From the NCBI RefSeq assembly GCF_003385955.1, contig NZ_QRDW01000007.1, forward strand, positions 124,001 to 188,000: DNA of 64,000 nt, written 5' to 3'. The position numbers were made by a program, and so were the translations under genes. The DNA is from Aestuariispira insulae (GTDB taxonomy: Bacteria > Pseudomonadota > Alphaproteobacteria > UBA8366 > Aestuariispiraceae). Shown in pieces: positions 1,112 through 38,232 of this stretch (the stretch's first letter is position 1; each line of letters opens with the position of its first letter). Below the pieces are notes generated by a model, which ran no database searches, was not told where the DNA came from, and saw only the letters and a program-made list of their open reading frames with translations.

Positions 1112-3073
1112 TTGCCTGAAAACACCTCCCTCCCCTGGCTGCTGGCCGGGCCGATCTTGCGAAAGATTGAACCAAGCCGGATCAGCTTTTGGCTGGCATC
1201 AAGCGCAGGCGGCCCGCTGCGCCTGACCCTGCAGCCGGAGGACGCACAGCAACAGGTCCTTGAGATCAACTCAGATGACAGCGGGCACAGCCGACTGTTG
1301 CAGGCTGGCGAGAAACTCTTTTTCCATCTGATCTCCCTGGACCTGTCCAGCCCGCTGCCTGTTGACCGTCGGGTCGACTATGTCTTGGAGCGGCAGCAGG
1401 ACGGCAAGGGCTGGATCGATATCACGAGCGAAGCCCCTTATCTGCTCTATCCCAACCAGAACCGAATGACCTTCAGGGTGCCAGGCGAAATCAAATCGAT
1501 CCTGCACGGATCCTGTCGCAAGCCGCATCATAATTCCGGTGATGGCCTGGTGGCGGCAGACAATCTGATGGCAGACCTTATGAAGCCAGGCCCGAGGGAA
1601 GATCCCCTTCCCCCCCACCGGCCCTCCCTGTTGCTGATGACCGGCGACCAGATCTATGCCGATGACGTTGCCGGACCGATGCTGATCGCAATCCATGATG
1701 TGATCGCCAGACTGGGCCTGTTCACGGAACGGTTCGACCTGGCAGAGCATGAGGATTACCGCACTTCAGATAAAATCCACCATCATGATTACAGCTACTA
1801 CCGGCGCAGTGAGATGCTGCCCAAGCTCCAAGGGGAAGATGATCTCGCGAAGGTTTTTTTCGGCGGCATTCGCAAACCGGTTTTCACCTCGGACACCAGT
1901 GACAATCACCTGATCACCCTGGCAGAACATCTGGTGATGTATCTGATGGTCTGGTCACCGGTGCCCTGGGAATTCGCGGACACATCCCCGCCGGATGGCT
2001 TAAGCCCGAAACAAAGTGCGCGCTACCGGCGCGAAAGACAGATCATCCGATCGTTCAAAGAGGGGCTCCCGCAGGTCCAGCGCCTGTTGGCGCATTTACC
2101 GACCGCCATGATTTTTGACGACCATGATGTGTCTGATGACTGGAACCTGAACCGGGAATGGGAAGAAGAGGTCTATGGCCACCCCTTTTCCAAACGCATG
2201 GTGGGCAATGCCCTGGCGGCCTATCTGACCTGTCAGGGGTGGGGCAATGCCCCCACCGAATTTCCCACCACGCTCATGGAGCATCTGGACCAGACCCTCA
2301 AACAGCCCGGCAGCAGCGAGCATGATGAGTTTACTGATGAACTTTTGCGGTTTGAAGGCTGGGAATATATCTGGGAGACCAGCCCGCCACTGACCGTGAT
2401 CGATACAAGGACAAGGCGATGGCGTTCGGAAAGCTCGCGTGTCAAACCAGCAGGCCTGCTGGACTGGGAAGCAATCACCGACCTGCAGCAAATGCTGAAA
2501 GGCAAGGAGGCCGTGATCCTGGTTTCATCCGCTCCGATTTTCGGGGTGAAACTGATTGAAAATATCCAGGCCTTTTTCACCTGGCTCGGCAAACCTTTGA
2601 TGGTGGATGCGGAAAACTGGATGGCCCATCCCGGAACGGCCCACGCGATCTTGAATATCTTCATGCACAAGAGAACGCCCAGGAATTTTACCATCCTCTC
2701 TGGAGATGTGCATTATTCCTTCGTCTATGACGTGGAACTGCGCCGCCATAACCGGGGGTCGGATATCTGGCAGATCTGTTCCAGCGGCTTACGCAACGAA
2801 TTTCCGAAAACCCTGCTGGATCGTCTGGATATCCTGAATCGCTGGCTATACTCGCCCTCATCGCCGCTGAACTGGTTTACCAAGCGACGCCGCATGCGGG
2901 TGGTCCCCAGGCGGCCCGAAGGGTTGGAGGACGGTCGGCGCCTTCTTAACGGCGCCGGAATCGGTCTGGTAGAATTTGACGATCAAGGACGCCCGGAACG
3001 TATCCGCCAGCTGTTGACCAATGGTGAGTTCCGGGGTTTCGAGCGCATGGAACATCACCACCAATATCGCTAA
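1112..3073 (+). CDS. PhoD-like metallophosphatase
   Basis: A 653-residue member of the PhoD-like phosphatase superfamily. Visible metal/active-site blocks are GSCRKPHHNSGDGLVAADNL, TGDQIYADDVA, FDDHDVSDDWN and, near the C-terminal third, SGDVHYSF. These supply the Asp and His ligands of a dinuclear calcineurin-like centre. No signal peptide or Tat motif is seen, unlike classical secreted PhoD, so it is probably cytoplasmic and may not be an alkaline phosphatase in the strict sense. The start is taken as TTG because an in-frame TGA lies at 1088 and there is no ATG between it and the conserved N-terminus; the ribosome binding site is weak. Confidence 0.8.
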   Translation: MPENTSLPWLLAGPILRKIEPSRISFWLASSAGGPLRLTLQPEDAQQQVLEINSDDSGHSRLLQAGEKLFFHLISLDLSSPLPVDRRVDYVLERQQDGKGWIDITSEAPYLLYPNQNRMTFRVPGEIKSILHGSCRKPHHNSGDGLVAADNLMADLMKPGPREDPLPPHRPSLLLMTGDQIYADDVAGPMLIAIHDVIARLGLFTERFDLAEHEDYRTSDKIHHHDYSYYRRSEMLPKLQGEDDLAKVFFGGIRKPVFTSDTSDNHLITLAEHLVMYLMVWSPVPWEFADTSPPDGLSPKQSARYRRERQIIRSFKEGLPQVQRLLAHLPTAMIFDDHDVSDDWNLNREWEEEVYGHPFSKRMVGNALAAYLTCQGWGNAPTEFPTTLMEHLDQTLKQPGSSEHDEFTDELLRFEGWEYIWETSPPLTVIDTRTRRWRSESSRVKPAGLLDWEAITDLQQMLKGKEAVILVSSAPIFGVKLIENIQAFFTWLGKPLMVDAENWMAHPGTAHAILNIFMHKRTPRNFTILSGDVHYSFVYDVELRRHNRGSDIWQICSSGLRNEFPKTLLDRLDILNRWLYSPSSPLNWFTKRRRMRVVPRRPEGLEDGRRLLNGAGIGLVEFDDQGRPERIRQLLTNGEFRGFERMEHHHQYR

Positions 3074-3132: not shown

Positions 3133-3510
3133 ATGAGAGGGAAACTGAACAGGCACATGCGTCTTTGGGCGGCGCTCTTCTTTCTGTTGGCGTTGATCGT
3201 CAACGGGTTCGGGCATGGTTTGTCCCGCTCTCAAACAACTTTGCCCGATTTTTCGGAACTGGGTTTCACCGGTGACCTAGCCGCCTTTCTTTGTATCTCT
3301 CCCAATGGCAATGGCCCAAAAAGCGGCCAGACCGAGGGCTGTGACAATTGCCGGCTGGTCGTAGCGGCCGCCCTGCCAGCTGCCCCGAAAACCCCCGCGG
3401 AAATCCTGGCGGCGGAATATAGCGCCACCCCGCAGTTGGAAGACTGGCAGCTTCCCTCTCCCATTACCCGAAGCCCGCCCAGCCTCCGAGGGCCGCCTCT
3501 TCCTGTCTGA
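3133..3510 (+). CDS. DUF2946-like small membrane/periplasmic protein
   Basis: A 125-residue protein with an N-terminal hydrophobic helix (LWAALFFLLALIVNGFGHG) that may be a signal anchor. A later EGCDNCRLVVAAALP segment has the CxxC-type pair and alanine/leucine stretch of DUF2946 proteins. These usually sit beside copper or iron uptake genes, and here the next gene is a PepSY transmembrane protein. A second ATG at 3157 would give a cleaner signal sequence. The domain assignment is from memory of the pattern, so the function (metal handling) is inference. Confidence 0.55.
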   Translation: MRGKLNRHMRLWAALFFLLALIVNGFGHGLSRSQTTLPDFSELGFTGDLAAFLCISPNGNGPKSGQTEGCDNCRLVVAAALPAAPKTPAEILAAEYSATPQLEDWQLPSPITRSPPSLRGPPLPV

Positions 3511-35640: not shown

Positions 35641-36885
35641 TTAGGCTGACAATAGTTTCATATCAGGCTGATCTTCCAGGATCCGGGCTTCCATCTCTGC
35701 GCAATACCAGTCGATGAAATTCTGCACACCAAATTCGATCGTGTCGGAATAGGGCCCCGGCTCATAGGCCATGGAATTGATGCCCTTCTGGTTGTTTTCC
35801 GCCAACTCCCGGTCCTGCTCATTGGTGGCTTTCCAGACCGTGGTCAGTTTATCCAGGTCATAATCAACGCCTTCCACTGCATCTTTGTGAACCAGCCATT
35901 TGGTGGTGACCATGGTTTTCTGCGGTCCCAGAGGCAGCACCCGGAAGGCCAGCACATGATCGGATTGCAGATGGTTCCAGGTATTGGGCAGATGCAGCAT
36001 GCGCACCGACCCAAGGCCACGGTCGGTCAGATTCCCCAGCATCTTTTCGCAGGCCGGGGTACCGTCGATGGTCATGCTGTCGGCTTCGTTGATGAAGGGC
36101 AGGCGCACGGCGCGATATTGCAGATTGGCCGGGGTCGGTTCATGAGGCAGCCCCTGGGCGGACCATTCCCTGGCCTTGCGCTCCATCAGATCCTTGTATT
36201 TGGGGTCAATACGCGGATCATCGGAATTATCAAATTCCGCCAGGGTATTCAGCAGCTCGGGATGGGACCCGGCGCAGTGATAACATTCCCGGTTATTCTC
36301 AATCACCAGCTTCCAGTTGGCATCTTCGATCAGGGTCTGTTCAAAAGCGACCTTGCTATTGTCGATATCATGGGGCGCCAGATAGGGTTCCACTTCTTTG
36401 CGGAATTGATCAAAGGCTGGTGGGTTCTTTGCCAGGCTGATGAAGATATAGCCACCGCATACCTCCAGATGAACCTTTTTGAGCTTGTAATCCGTGGTCT
36501 TGAATTCGGGGCCCATATTGCCCGCAAAGATCAGGCTGCCATCCTGATTGTAGGTCCATTGATGATAGGGGCAGACCAATTTCGGCGCATTGCCTTTATC
36601 CTTCAGGCAGATTTTCGATCCGCGATGGCGGCAGGTATTGAAAACACCATGGATCGAGCCATCCGGGTCGCGGGTCACGATGATCGGGTTATTGCCGATG
36701 TCAACGGTGAAGAAATCCCCGCTGTTGGGGATGTCACAGGTCAGGCCGACATAGATCCAGCCTTTTTCCCAGATATGCTTCATATCCAGATCAAAGAATG
36801 CCTGGGCATTATAAAATGGCTGTTCCAGTGAGAAGTTGGCCTTGCGCCGCAACAGCATGGCCAGCATCCGGTTTTGCGTATCCAT
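35641..36885 (-). CDS. gbcA: Rieske non-haem iron oxygenase alpha subunit, GbcA-like
   Basis: A 414-residue ring-hydroxylating-type oxygenase. Rieske ligands are C-R-H (CRHRGSKICL) and C-P-Y-H (LVCPYHQW). The mononuclear iron site lies in ENNRECYHCAGSHPELL, a block typical of the GbcA/stachydrine/carnitine-type N-demethylases rather than aromatic dioxygenases. SLEQPFYNAQAFFDLDMKHIWEKGWIYVGLTCDIP also fits GbcA. Probable reaction: O2-dependent demethylation of glycine betaine to dimethylglycine; a related quaternary amine is possible. The ATG at 36885 is chosen where homology begins (an ATG at 36918 is possible). A cobalamin riboswitch lies about 190 bases upstream on the same strand. Confidence 0.82.
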   Translation of the reverse strand: MDTQNRMLAMLLRRKANFSLEQPFYNAQAFFDLDMKHIWEKGWIYVGLTCDIPNSGDFFTVDIGNNPIIVTRDPDGSIHGVFNTCRHRGSKICLKDKGNAPKLVCPYHQWTYNQDGSLIFAGNMGPEFKTTDYKLKKVHLEVCGGYIFISLAKNPPAFDQFRKEVEPYLAPHDIDNSKVAFEQTLIEDANWKLVIENNRECYHCAGSHPELLNTLAEFDNSDDPRIDPKYKDLMERKAREWSAQGLPHEPTPANLQYRAVRLPFINEADSMTIDGTPACEKMLGNLTDRGLGSVRMLHLPNTWNHLQSDHVLAFRVLPLGPQKTMVTTKWLVHKDAVEGVDYDLDKLTTVWKATNEQDRELAENNQKGINSMAYEPGPYSDTIEFGVQNFIDWYCAEMEARILEDQPDMKLLSA

Positions 36886-37074
36886 AACAAAATCCACTTC
36901 TTGTCGTTTCCGCCAAGGCATGATCCCGGACGGCTTTCGGATGTTATGAATCACGTGGTTGAGGATAAGGCGGCGGGACCATTCTCACCCGCGGATCCTG
37001 AAAGCGGGCAAGCCTGAAAGGCGCATTGGTCACGCACGTCTCGTCAATCGCCCACCGCGATCCGTCGAGTTAAC

Positions 37075-37240
37075 ATGTTCCAGGCTGGTTTCCGGACTCA
37101 GAGGTGAAGGCCGTCGCCTTCCCCCCACCCCTTCCCGGGCGATCCGCCCAGTGGTTCCGGTGGGGACTTCCTCTTTACCGTTGCGGGGGCAGCACCGGGA
37201 TCGACGGTTATCCGCCTCACCGGTTTCCCAATTATCCGAT
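37075..37240 (-). ncRNA. Cobalamin (B12) riboswitch upstream of the Rieske oxygenase
   Basis: Read on the minus strand, the region carries the conserved parts in the right order. These are GGGAAACCGGTG (plus-strand 37218-37232), then GCTGCCCCCGCAACGGTAA (37175-37193), CCACTGGGCGG followed by GGGAAGG (37130-37154), and the B12-box-like GTCCGGAAACCAGCC (37083-37097). The gene immediately downstream is the GbcA-like oxygenase, 190 bases away. B12 riboswitches normally repress when coenzyme B12 is bound. I see no clear T-run terminator between it and the gene, so control is more likely at translation. Confidence 0.88.
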
Positions 37241-37515: not shown

Positions 37516-38232
37516 CTATTCCTGTTCAGCGGCATCCGCCGCCGCATGAAGATGCGCCACCAGATCGGCTTCCAGGCCCATCCTTGCCGCCAGCATGGCC
37601 AGATAACCCTGTTCCGCCGGGCCATTGCGGTCAACAATCAGGACTGAGGCCAGATAAATTTCCGCCTTCTGCTCCGGACAGTCGACAGACCCGGCCACGG
37701 CTTCGATATCCATTGGCTTGGCAAGCTCTGTTTCAACAAACTGGCGGTGGCTGTTTTCCAGGGACAAACGGCCCAACTGTTCAGAAATGCGCGCGCGCTC
37801 ATCCGGCGTGATATGCCCGTCCGCTTTTGCCGCATTGATCATAGCCCGCACCAGCGCAGTTCCCAGATCATCCTGTGCGGCGGCAGCCTGTGGCAGGAAC
37901 GCGCTGTCCGCCGGCGCAGCCAGGTCCGCCTCATCCAGGGGCGCAGGAGCTGTCGCCTTATTATTCTGCCAATCGCGATAGGCCTTATAGGCCAAACCGC
38001 CAACCAGGGCGACGCCGCCCACTTTCAGGGCCTTTTTCGCAATCTTCTTCGGTTTTTTGCCACCCAGCATCAACCCAGCCAGGCCACCAACCACCGCTCC
38101 GGTCGCCAAGCCGCCTTTGCCGCTCAGCATGGATTGAAGATCGACACCGGTACCGCCGCCGGCCCCGCCGGCGCCCTGGCCACCCAGAAACTGATTGAGA
38201 AGTTGGCCCGCGTTTTTCATGCCGTCATCCAT
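37516..38232 (-). CDS. DUF533/TerB-like protein (YebE family)
   Basis: A 238-residue protein. The N-terminal part is glycine-rich (FLGGQGAGGAGGGTG) with a hydrophobic stretch GLATGAVVGGLAGLMLGG and a second, ALKVGGVALVGGLAYKAYRDW. The C-terminal 100 residues (ALVRAMINAAKADGHITPDERARISEQLG...VLIVDRNGPAEQGYLAMLAARMGL) form the DUF533/TerB-like helical domain. The family includes E. coli YebE, an envelope-stress-induced membrane protein; function unknown. A second ATG at 38220 (MKNAGQLLNQFLG) may be the true start. Confidence 0.82.
   Translation of the reverse strand: MDDGMKNAGQLLNQFLGGQGAGGAGGGTGVDLQSMLSGKGGLATGAVVGGLAGLMLGGKKPKKIAKKALKVGGVALVGGLAYKAYRDWQNNKATAPAPLDEADLAAPADSAFLPQAAAAQDDLGTALVRAMINAAKADGHITPDERARISEQLGRLSLENSHRQFVETELAKPMDIEAVAGSVDCPEQKAEIYLASVLIVDRNGPAEQGYLAMLAARMGLEADLVAHLHAAADAAEQE

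Follow-up and report, generated by a model that had tools for sequence, protein, structure and literature searches.

The stretch of DNA analysed here (the window, 64,000 nucleotides of genome G000, from the family f1, with 14 genomes) carries on its minus strand a cobalamin riboswitch followed by the genes of a GbcA-like oxygenase and a GbcB-like reductase. Read along that strand, the features of the locus were the following:

37409-37377, minus strand: intrinsic-terminator-like site behind the upstream gene (consensus match only)
37287-37066, minus strand: complete aptamer of a cobalamin riboswitch, RF00174 (cmscan, E 9.5e-25, 103.3 bits)
37062-37046, minus strand: post-aptamer hairpin GATCGC-GGTGG-GCGATT (pattern and compensatory changes)
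36956-36948, minus strand: distal segment, possible partner of the 5′ arm of the hairpin (8/9 pairs; in G000 the arm has a better duplex elsewhere)
36951-36943, minus strand: predicted anti-start segment ATTCATAAC (9/9 pairs with the start region, seen in the MFE fold)
36888-36880, minus strand: start-codon region GTTATGGAT, pairing with the anti-start segment (MFE fold, 9/9 pairs)
36885-35641, minus strand: gbcA-like Rieske oxygenase gene, 414 aa (NF058607, 636.4 bits, E 1.5e-191; Pfam Rieske and Ring_hydroxyl_A)
35569-34481, minus strand: gbcB-like reductase gene, 362 aa (NF058606, 457.2 bits; FAD, NAD, and 2Fe-2S domains)

The RF00174 match covered model positions 1-189 of 189, with a score far over the gathering score of 31.5 (Infernal), and it was the sole Rfam match at the gathering score within the 64 kb. 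This search with the Rfam cobalamin model had been proposed in the earlier note, and the recovery of the whole aptamer bore out its claim of a minus-strand cobalamin riboswitch facing the Rieske oxygenase gene. The span given there (35641-37240) was right about the element and fell 47 nt short of the 5′ end of the aptamer. The aptamer is separated from the ATG of gbcA by 180 nt. A different, overlooked target on the minus strand was excluded, since no ORF of at least 80 aa is listed in this gap and the next gene is the Rieske oxygenase. An intrinsic terminator as expression platform was also rejected; none was detected by consensus on the minus strand of the window between the aptamer and gbcA. 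The upstream TerB-like gene is set off from the riboswitch by the terminator-like site at 37409-37377, so that the riboswitch transcript probably starts between this site and 37287; a search of the window gave no match to a sigma-70-type promoter for it. Two TerB-like proteins were recognised by eye in this genome, one adjoining the gbcA riboswitch (window 37516-38232, minus strand) and the other at L065:14177-14905.

By homology, the best family of the oxygenase was NF058607 (GbcA), with 636 bits and the next family far behind at 116, which agrees with the earlier reading of the Rieske gene as GbcA-like. Since the score is under the curated cut-off of 670, we call the protein GbcA-like. The adjoining reductase had NF058606 (GbcB) as its best family, below the cut-off of 500 and with the next family at 210 bits. 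The start of gbcA was placed by homology at the ATG at 36885, taking into account that NF058607 matches from residue 3; there is a GTG in the same frame at 36954. Residues C85, H87, C105, H108, H203, H208, and D358 were invariant in 8 homologues, and we take the first four to be the Rieske CxH...CxxH motif and the other three to be the His/His/Asp iron site. As judged from these similarities, the GbcAB-type enzyme is probably an O2-using demethylase of glycine betaine. The same switch could serve a different quaternary amine such as stachydrine or carnitine, GbcAB then backing up a different methyltransferase of the MttB family. We consider this unlikely: the NF058607 score under the cut-off would fit it, as would the best solved relatives of the oxygenase, 3vca and 4qup (406 bits; the title of 4qup reads demethylase), both of which we assume to be the stachydrine demethylase Stc2, but the distance to the next family speaks for GbcA. 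Among plasmids, 337 records matched GbcA, each with less than 60% identity.

The pairing of riboswitch and gbcA is a real and recurring regulatory link. GbcA was found at E <= 1e-60 in 8 of the 59 genomes searched, all of them within the family (8/14), and every one of these eight had a cobalamin riboswitch directly upstream on the same strand; the seven relatives were found again on a repeat search. G000 itself holds five cobalamin riboswitches and one GbcA at this threshold. Eight pairings in the eight GbcA genomes among 59 searched are far beyond chance. In the class, a GbcA-like match at E <= 1e-80 was present in 36 of 385 genomes. The check covered 26 loci, out of 32 class genomes outside f1 with such a match, by pattern and by Infernal (20 + 6), and both methods agreed on all 26; a riboswitch preceded gbcA in four (G297, G379, G418, and G189). 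Among the best 80 named loci, mostly from Gammaproteobacteria and scanned with the pattern over at most 1500 nt of upstream sequence (1477 nt in L176 and 372 nt in L193), the only one with an upstream riboswitch was that of Rhodoferax lacus, which Infernal scored at 110.7 bits. Of the named loci, Infernal was run on L131 and on L130, L150, L202, and L207-L209, the latter six giving no cobalamin riboswitch. In the family of Rhodoferax, 13 of 299 genomes had a match at E <= 1e-100; the GbcA of R. lacus was 58% identical to the query and the other 12 were 43-46% identical. The class of R. lacus (369 genomes) gave one further match at E <= 1e-110, G1040, without a riboswitch. In total, riboswitch and gbcA were paired in 13 genomes and on two gbcA lineages. 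Two observations were made at these loci: in L213 two cobalamin riboswitches lie back to back (2833-3041 and 3146-3356), one directed towards gbcA and the other away from it, and in L202 (3307-5733, an Oceanospirillaceae MAG) GbcA starts an 808-aa frame whose length would suit a GbcA-GbcB fusion.

The phylogeny of gbcA was calculated as a quick tree of 114 rows with SH-aLRT support only; it omits L250-L260 as well as L225, L230, and L232, whose matches contain an in-frame stop. The riboswitch-bearing sequences fell in two regions. In the first, G000, G001, G297, and R. lacus adjoin gammaproteobacterial GbcA (support 93, not starred), and those next to G000 include the sequences of Pseudomonas and Chromohalobacter, a neighbourhood that argues against a quaternary amine other than glycine betaine as the substrate. 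In the second, G005, G007-G011, G379, G418, and G189 belong to a starred 17-row clade (alpha-type GbcA), which also holds the riboswitch-free G148, G083, G378, G394, L202, and L207-L209. The riboswitch label changes six times on the tree, and at least five of the changes are forced by starred branches; R. lacus, G297, and G379 are among the rows flagged for long branches. Since the riboswitch-bearing members of f1 sit in both regions (G000 and G001 in one, G005 and G007-G011 in the other), the family contains two lineages of gbcA, each preceded by B12 riboswitches.

A hairpin of the form GATCGC-GGNNG-GCGAT[C/T], which we take to be P13, directly follows the aptamer in all 13 gbcA leaders. Among 43 other family riboswitches, one (that of fdhA in G001) showed the same pattern, against 0 of 13000 shuffled leaders, and the exchanges in its stem are compensatory (G-C/A-U and U-A/C-G). 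In cobalamin riboswitches the loop of the post-aptamer hairpin can contact L5; here the loop was complementary by eye to CCACT/CCATT of the P5 region in 11 of 13 leaders, with a mismatch in G005 and G008. Further downstream, distal segments picked by eye can pair with the 5′ arm of the hairpin (9/9 pairs in G001, G005, and R. lacus; 8/9 in G000; 9/11 in G007 and G009-G011), and in 7 of 8 leaders of f1 the distal segment adjoins or overlaps an anti-start segment that can pair with the start region. Anti-start and start region form 9/9 pairs in G000 and G001, 8/9 in G005, and 7/8 in four other leaders of f1; an anti-start of this kind was not recognised in G008, G297, G379, G418, G189, and R. 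lacus.

This arrangement of hairpin, distal segment, and anti-start suggests that the ligand closes the hairpin, frees the anti-start, and covers the start codon, that is, a plain OFF design with two states, for which the controls were mixed. Of 300 shuffles each, 1 in R. lacus, 11 in G001, 12 in G005, and 80-105 in G009-G011 reached the energy of the arm duplex. In 6 of 13 leaders the arm formed its best duplex with the segment proposed here, the best duplexes of G000 and G007 using other segments, and arms and segments swapped between genomes paired nearly equally well (7-9 of 9). The pairing of the start region was reached by 3 of 100 shuffles in G005, 7 in G000, and 8 in G001, and by 21-75 of 100 in nine leaders; in R. 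lacus it was below all 100 shuffles, the start being unusually open. We therefore dropped start pairing as a statistical argument, as it was mostly not above shuffles. The mixed outcome of these controls would be compatible with a riboswitch left behind by a B12 gene, or with one that switches gbcAB on instead of off. It is very unlikely that either is the case, considering the 13 cases on two gbcA lineages and a hairpin that is missing from 42 of the 43 other riboswitches of the family.

A B12-dependent counterpart of GbcAB had been suggested in the earlier note among the corrinoid methyltransferases, together with a look for MtgB- and MtgC-type genes elsewhere in the genome. MttB-family and MtgC-type genes were found. 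PF06253 (MttB) matched in 24 of the 59 genomes and in all 14 genomes of f1, with seven matches in G000, a number that leaves some room for a partner acting on another quaternary amine. MttB is present in 14/14 genomes of f1 and GbcA in 8/14, which is the pattern expected of GbcA as a backup. MttB was also searched for in 70 genomes, hand-picked from those with GbcA-like matches, and 12 had MttB: all five further genomes with a riboswitch-gbcA pair and seven riboswitch-free ones (G148, G083, G098, G390, G219, G314, and that of L202). For the named loci, the genomes of 50 hand-picked ones out of the best 80 were searched, and R. lacus and the genome of L202 were the only two with MttB. Thirteen of the 77 tree rows scored had riboswitch and MttB, none had the riboswitch only, six had MttB only, and 58 had neither, so that MttB accompanied 13 of 13 riboswitch-gbcA genomes against 6 of 64 other rows (Fisher p 1.5e-10, kinship ignored); G314, with MttB and without the riboswitch, lies outside this table. 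With correction for kinship, three independent pairs were for the association and none against (p 0.25), and this test was dropped as an argument because three pairs are too few. The real exceptions in the alpha-type GbcA clade are G148, G083, and L202, with MttB and without the riboswitch; G098, G390, and G219 are grouped on a deep branch of their own in the tree.

The other genes of the corrinoid system were read in G000 only, where they form a cluster:

contig C2, about 288.6-299.6 kb: Mtg cluster with two MtgC-type genes, DUF1638, an MtgD-type gene, RACo, two MetF-like genes, and a homocysteine methyltransferase (partial match)

Both corrinoid proteins had MtgC as their best NCBIfam family, with 212 and 223 bits, under the cut-off of 370. 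The MtgD-type gene encodes a Pterin_bind protein, the homocysteine methyltransferase, counted as MtgE-like, is a partial match, and the MetF-like genes were recognised by eye. A Bmt/MtgE-type enzyme (NF005718, 462 bits, above the cut-off of 338) is located apart from the cluster (L262). Two of the MttB copies matched PDB 9yce, "Glycine betaine methyltransferase" (E 7.3e-120 and 1.9e-126), and both scored better against 4yyc, a putative trimethylamine methyltransferase; five of the seven copies are followed by long oxidoreductases that by eye resemble dimethylglycine/sarcosine dehydrogenases. The corrinoid counterpart can be refined to an aerobic system, MtgBCD, as the candidate for the direct B12-dependent equivalent of GbcAB, the betaine specificity of the MttB copies being putative. 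In Ruegeria pomeroyi, according to passages of PMC12478193, MtgBCD has been demonstrated as an aerobic system, and MtgC and MtgD are required for both betaine demethylation and methionine synthesis (Mausz et al. 2025).

Since a B12-dependent route to the same step also appears to be present, the cell probably changes to the B12-free enzyme at B12 shortage. We consider it rather likely that the locus is a B12-gated isoenzyme switch, in which B12 represses GbcAB, a B12-free backup for MtgBCD on glycine betaine. When cobalamin is plentiful, it would bind the leader RNA and hold the post-aptamer hairpin closed; the distal segment, the alternative partner of the 5′ arm, would be set free, the neighbouring anti-start segment would pair with the start codon, and GbcAB would not be made. 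MtgBCD, the corrinoid system, would then demethylate glycine betaine. At B12 shortage the leader would open and the O2-dependent GbcAB would take over the demethylation step, with release of formaldehyde. The pair of riboswitch and gbcAB is probably a B12-sparing switch, as had been suggested before, and the cell would presumably benefit from it. If this is true, B12 would decide which of two unrelated chemistries breaks down a major osmolyte, and betaine turnover, formaldehyde release, and oxygen use would depend on vitamin supply.

We also inspected the targets of the 39 other riboswitches in the relatives within f1. By eye, 18 were cobalt/B12 uptake genes (CbtA-, CbiM-, HupE-, BtuB-, or BtuFCD-like) or BluB-like genes, six riboswitches preceded a conserved small ORF, and about a third of the targets were unassignable. 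Together with the leader model, these other targets underlie the proposed repression of gbcAB by B12. One riboswitch preceded a formaldehyde dehydrogenase and one a homocysteine methyltransferase, both in G001, where the two riboswitches are divergent. The dehydrogenase gene, fdhA, starts 283 nt behind the riboswitch C1:1707645-1707446 and encodes a glutathione-independent enzyme (TIGR02819, 710.6 bits, cut-off 636.95). Formaldehyde is a product of GbcAB (passages of PMC12478193), and since MtgBCD does not yield it, co-regulation of fdhA and gbcA fits in this one genome. FdhA as a general partner of riboswitch-gbcA was rejected, TIGR02819 being found at E <= 1e-80 in 1 of 20 genomes (G001).

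Among the 14 genomes of the family, G000 (L064:5258-6322, minus strand) and G001 (L270:182-1246) were the only two with a homocysteine S-methyltransferase behind a cobalamin riboswitch. The two copies are 82% identical and resemble human BHMT (151 bits). In the alignment, W44, Y77, and Y160 of human BHMT, which we take to be its betaine-binding aromatic residues, are replaced by F, N, and T; for this reason betaine was rejected as the methyl donor and we do not claim such a role. G000 has no match to MetE (PF01717) and no MetH-sized PF02607 protein, and it is possible that the riboswitch-controlled enzyme is a B12-free methionine synthase. These same observations would suit a role of GbcAB in methyl or glycine supply instead of as a catabolic replacement for MtgBCD: at B12 shortage, methionine or corrin synthesis would draw on it for glycine or for C1 units derived from formaldehyde. 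Such a role appears quite improbable, because the riboswitch-methyltransferase pair is confined to two of the 14 genomes, against riboswitch-gbcA in eight, and because of the replaced aromatic residues. Returning to the switch between MtgBCD and GbcAB, it is quite possible, if short of probable, that the B12 status of the cell decides which of two entire one-carbon routes is in use, as in G001. One would be the corrinoid Mtg system, responsible for betaine demethylation as well as methionine synthesis; the other would be a B12-free set of GbcAB, formaldehyde dehydrogenase, and the unusual homocysteine methyltransferase, each under a cobalamin riboswitch. This wider reading includes a dedicated two-state leader on two different gbcA lineages.

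The control of B12-independent isozymes by cobalamin riboswitches, e.g., metE, is established (passages of PMC2211319 and PMC3766115), and a fatty-acid desaturase has also been suggested as such a target (a passage of PMC2211319). Our locus is like the metE systems in its RF00174 aptamer, in the co-occurrence of a B12-free and a B12-dependent enzyme within one genome, and in the expected repression by B12, and unlike them in its target, a predicted O2-dependent catabolic Rieske demethylase with a chemistry unrelated to that of the corrinoid methyltransferase. The nrd genes are a further case of an isozyme under a B12 riboswitch, and to our knowledge the known pairs concern biosynthesis. With GbcAB of Pseudomonas and Chromohalobacter, where gbcAB is controlled by the transcription factor GbdR, our pair shares the oxygenase and reductase composition and belongs to the same family by sequence and tree; in contrast, 79 of the best 80 named loci were without an upstream riboswitch (pattern). 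With respect to MtgBCDE of R. pomeroyi, which converts betaine to dimethylglycine, homologous gene types are present in G000; unlike GbcAB, that system is B12-dependent, transfers the methyl group to tetrahydrofolate, uses no O2, and releases no formaldehyde (passages of PMC12478193). Bacteria with GbcAB and without MtgBCDE are mentioned in a passage of the same article, whereas G000 has both systems, with GbcAB behind a B12 sensor.

The earlier note knew of no described case of a Rieske demethylase under a B12 riboswitch, and none was found in the open-licence library searched. No paper there joined cobalamin riboswitch, glycine betaine, and Rieske, or B12 riboswitch, betaine, and demethylase. 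Cobalamin riboswitch and Rieske were mentioned together in two genome papers, in unrelated passages (for PMC5317091, as judged from its riboswitch passage), and in the one paper with gbcA and riboswitch the word "riboswitch" appeared once, within a reference list. The main text of PMC3766115 contains none of the words "oxygenase", "betaine", and "Rieske". The search covered main texts in an open-licence library, and a case may have been printed elsewhere. The kind of control is known; the target, its chemistry, and the leader appear to be new.

A minor observation concerns a small protein of about 100-126 aa that lies directly behind a cobalamin riboswitch in seven genomes of the family (L065:9126-9506 on contig C5 of G000, L265, L280, L289, L293, L297, and L301) and looks alike by eye in all of them. 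The protein of G000 had no Pfam or NCBIfam match. Its gene is followed in G000 by that of an MCP-signalling protein, and by eye a similar-looking one was seen in G005.
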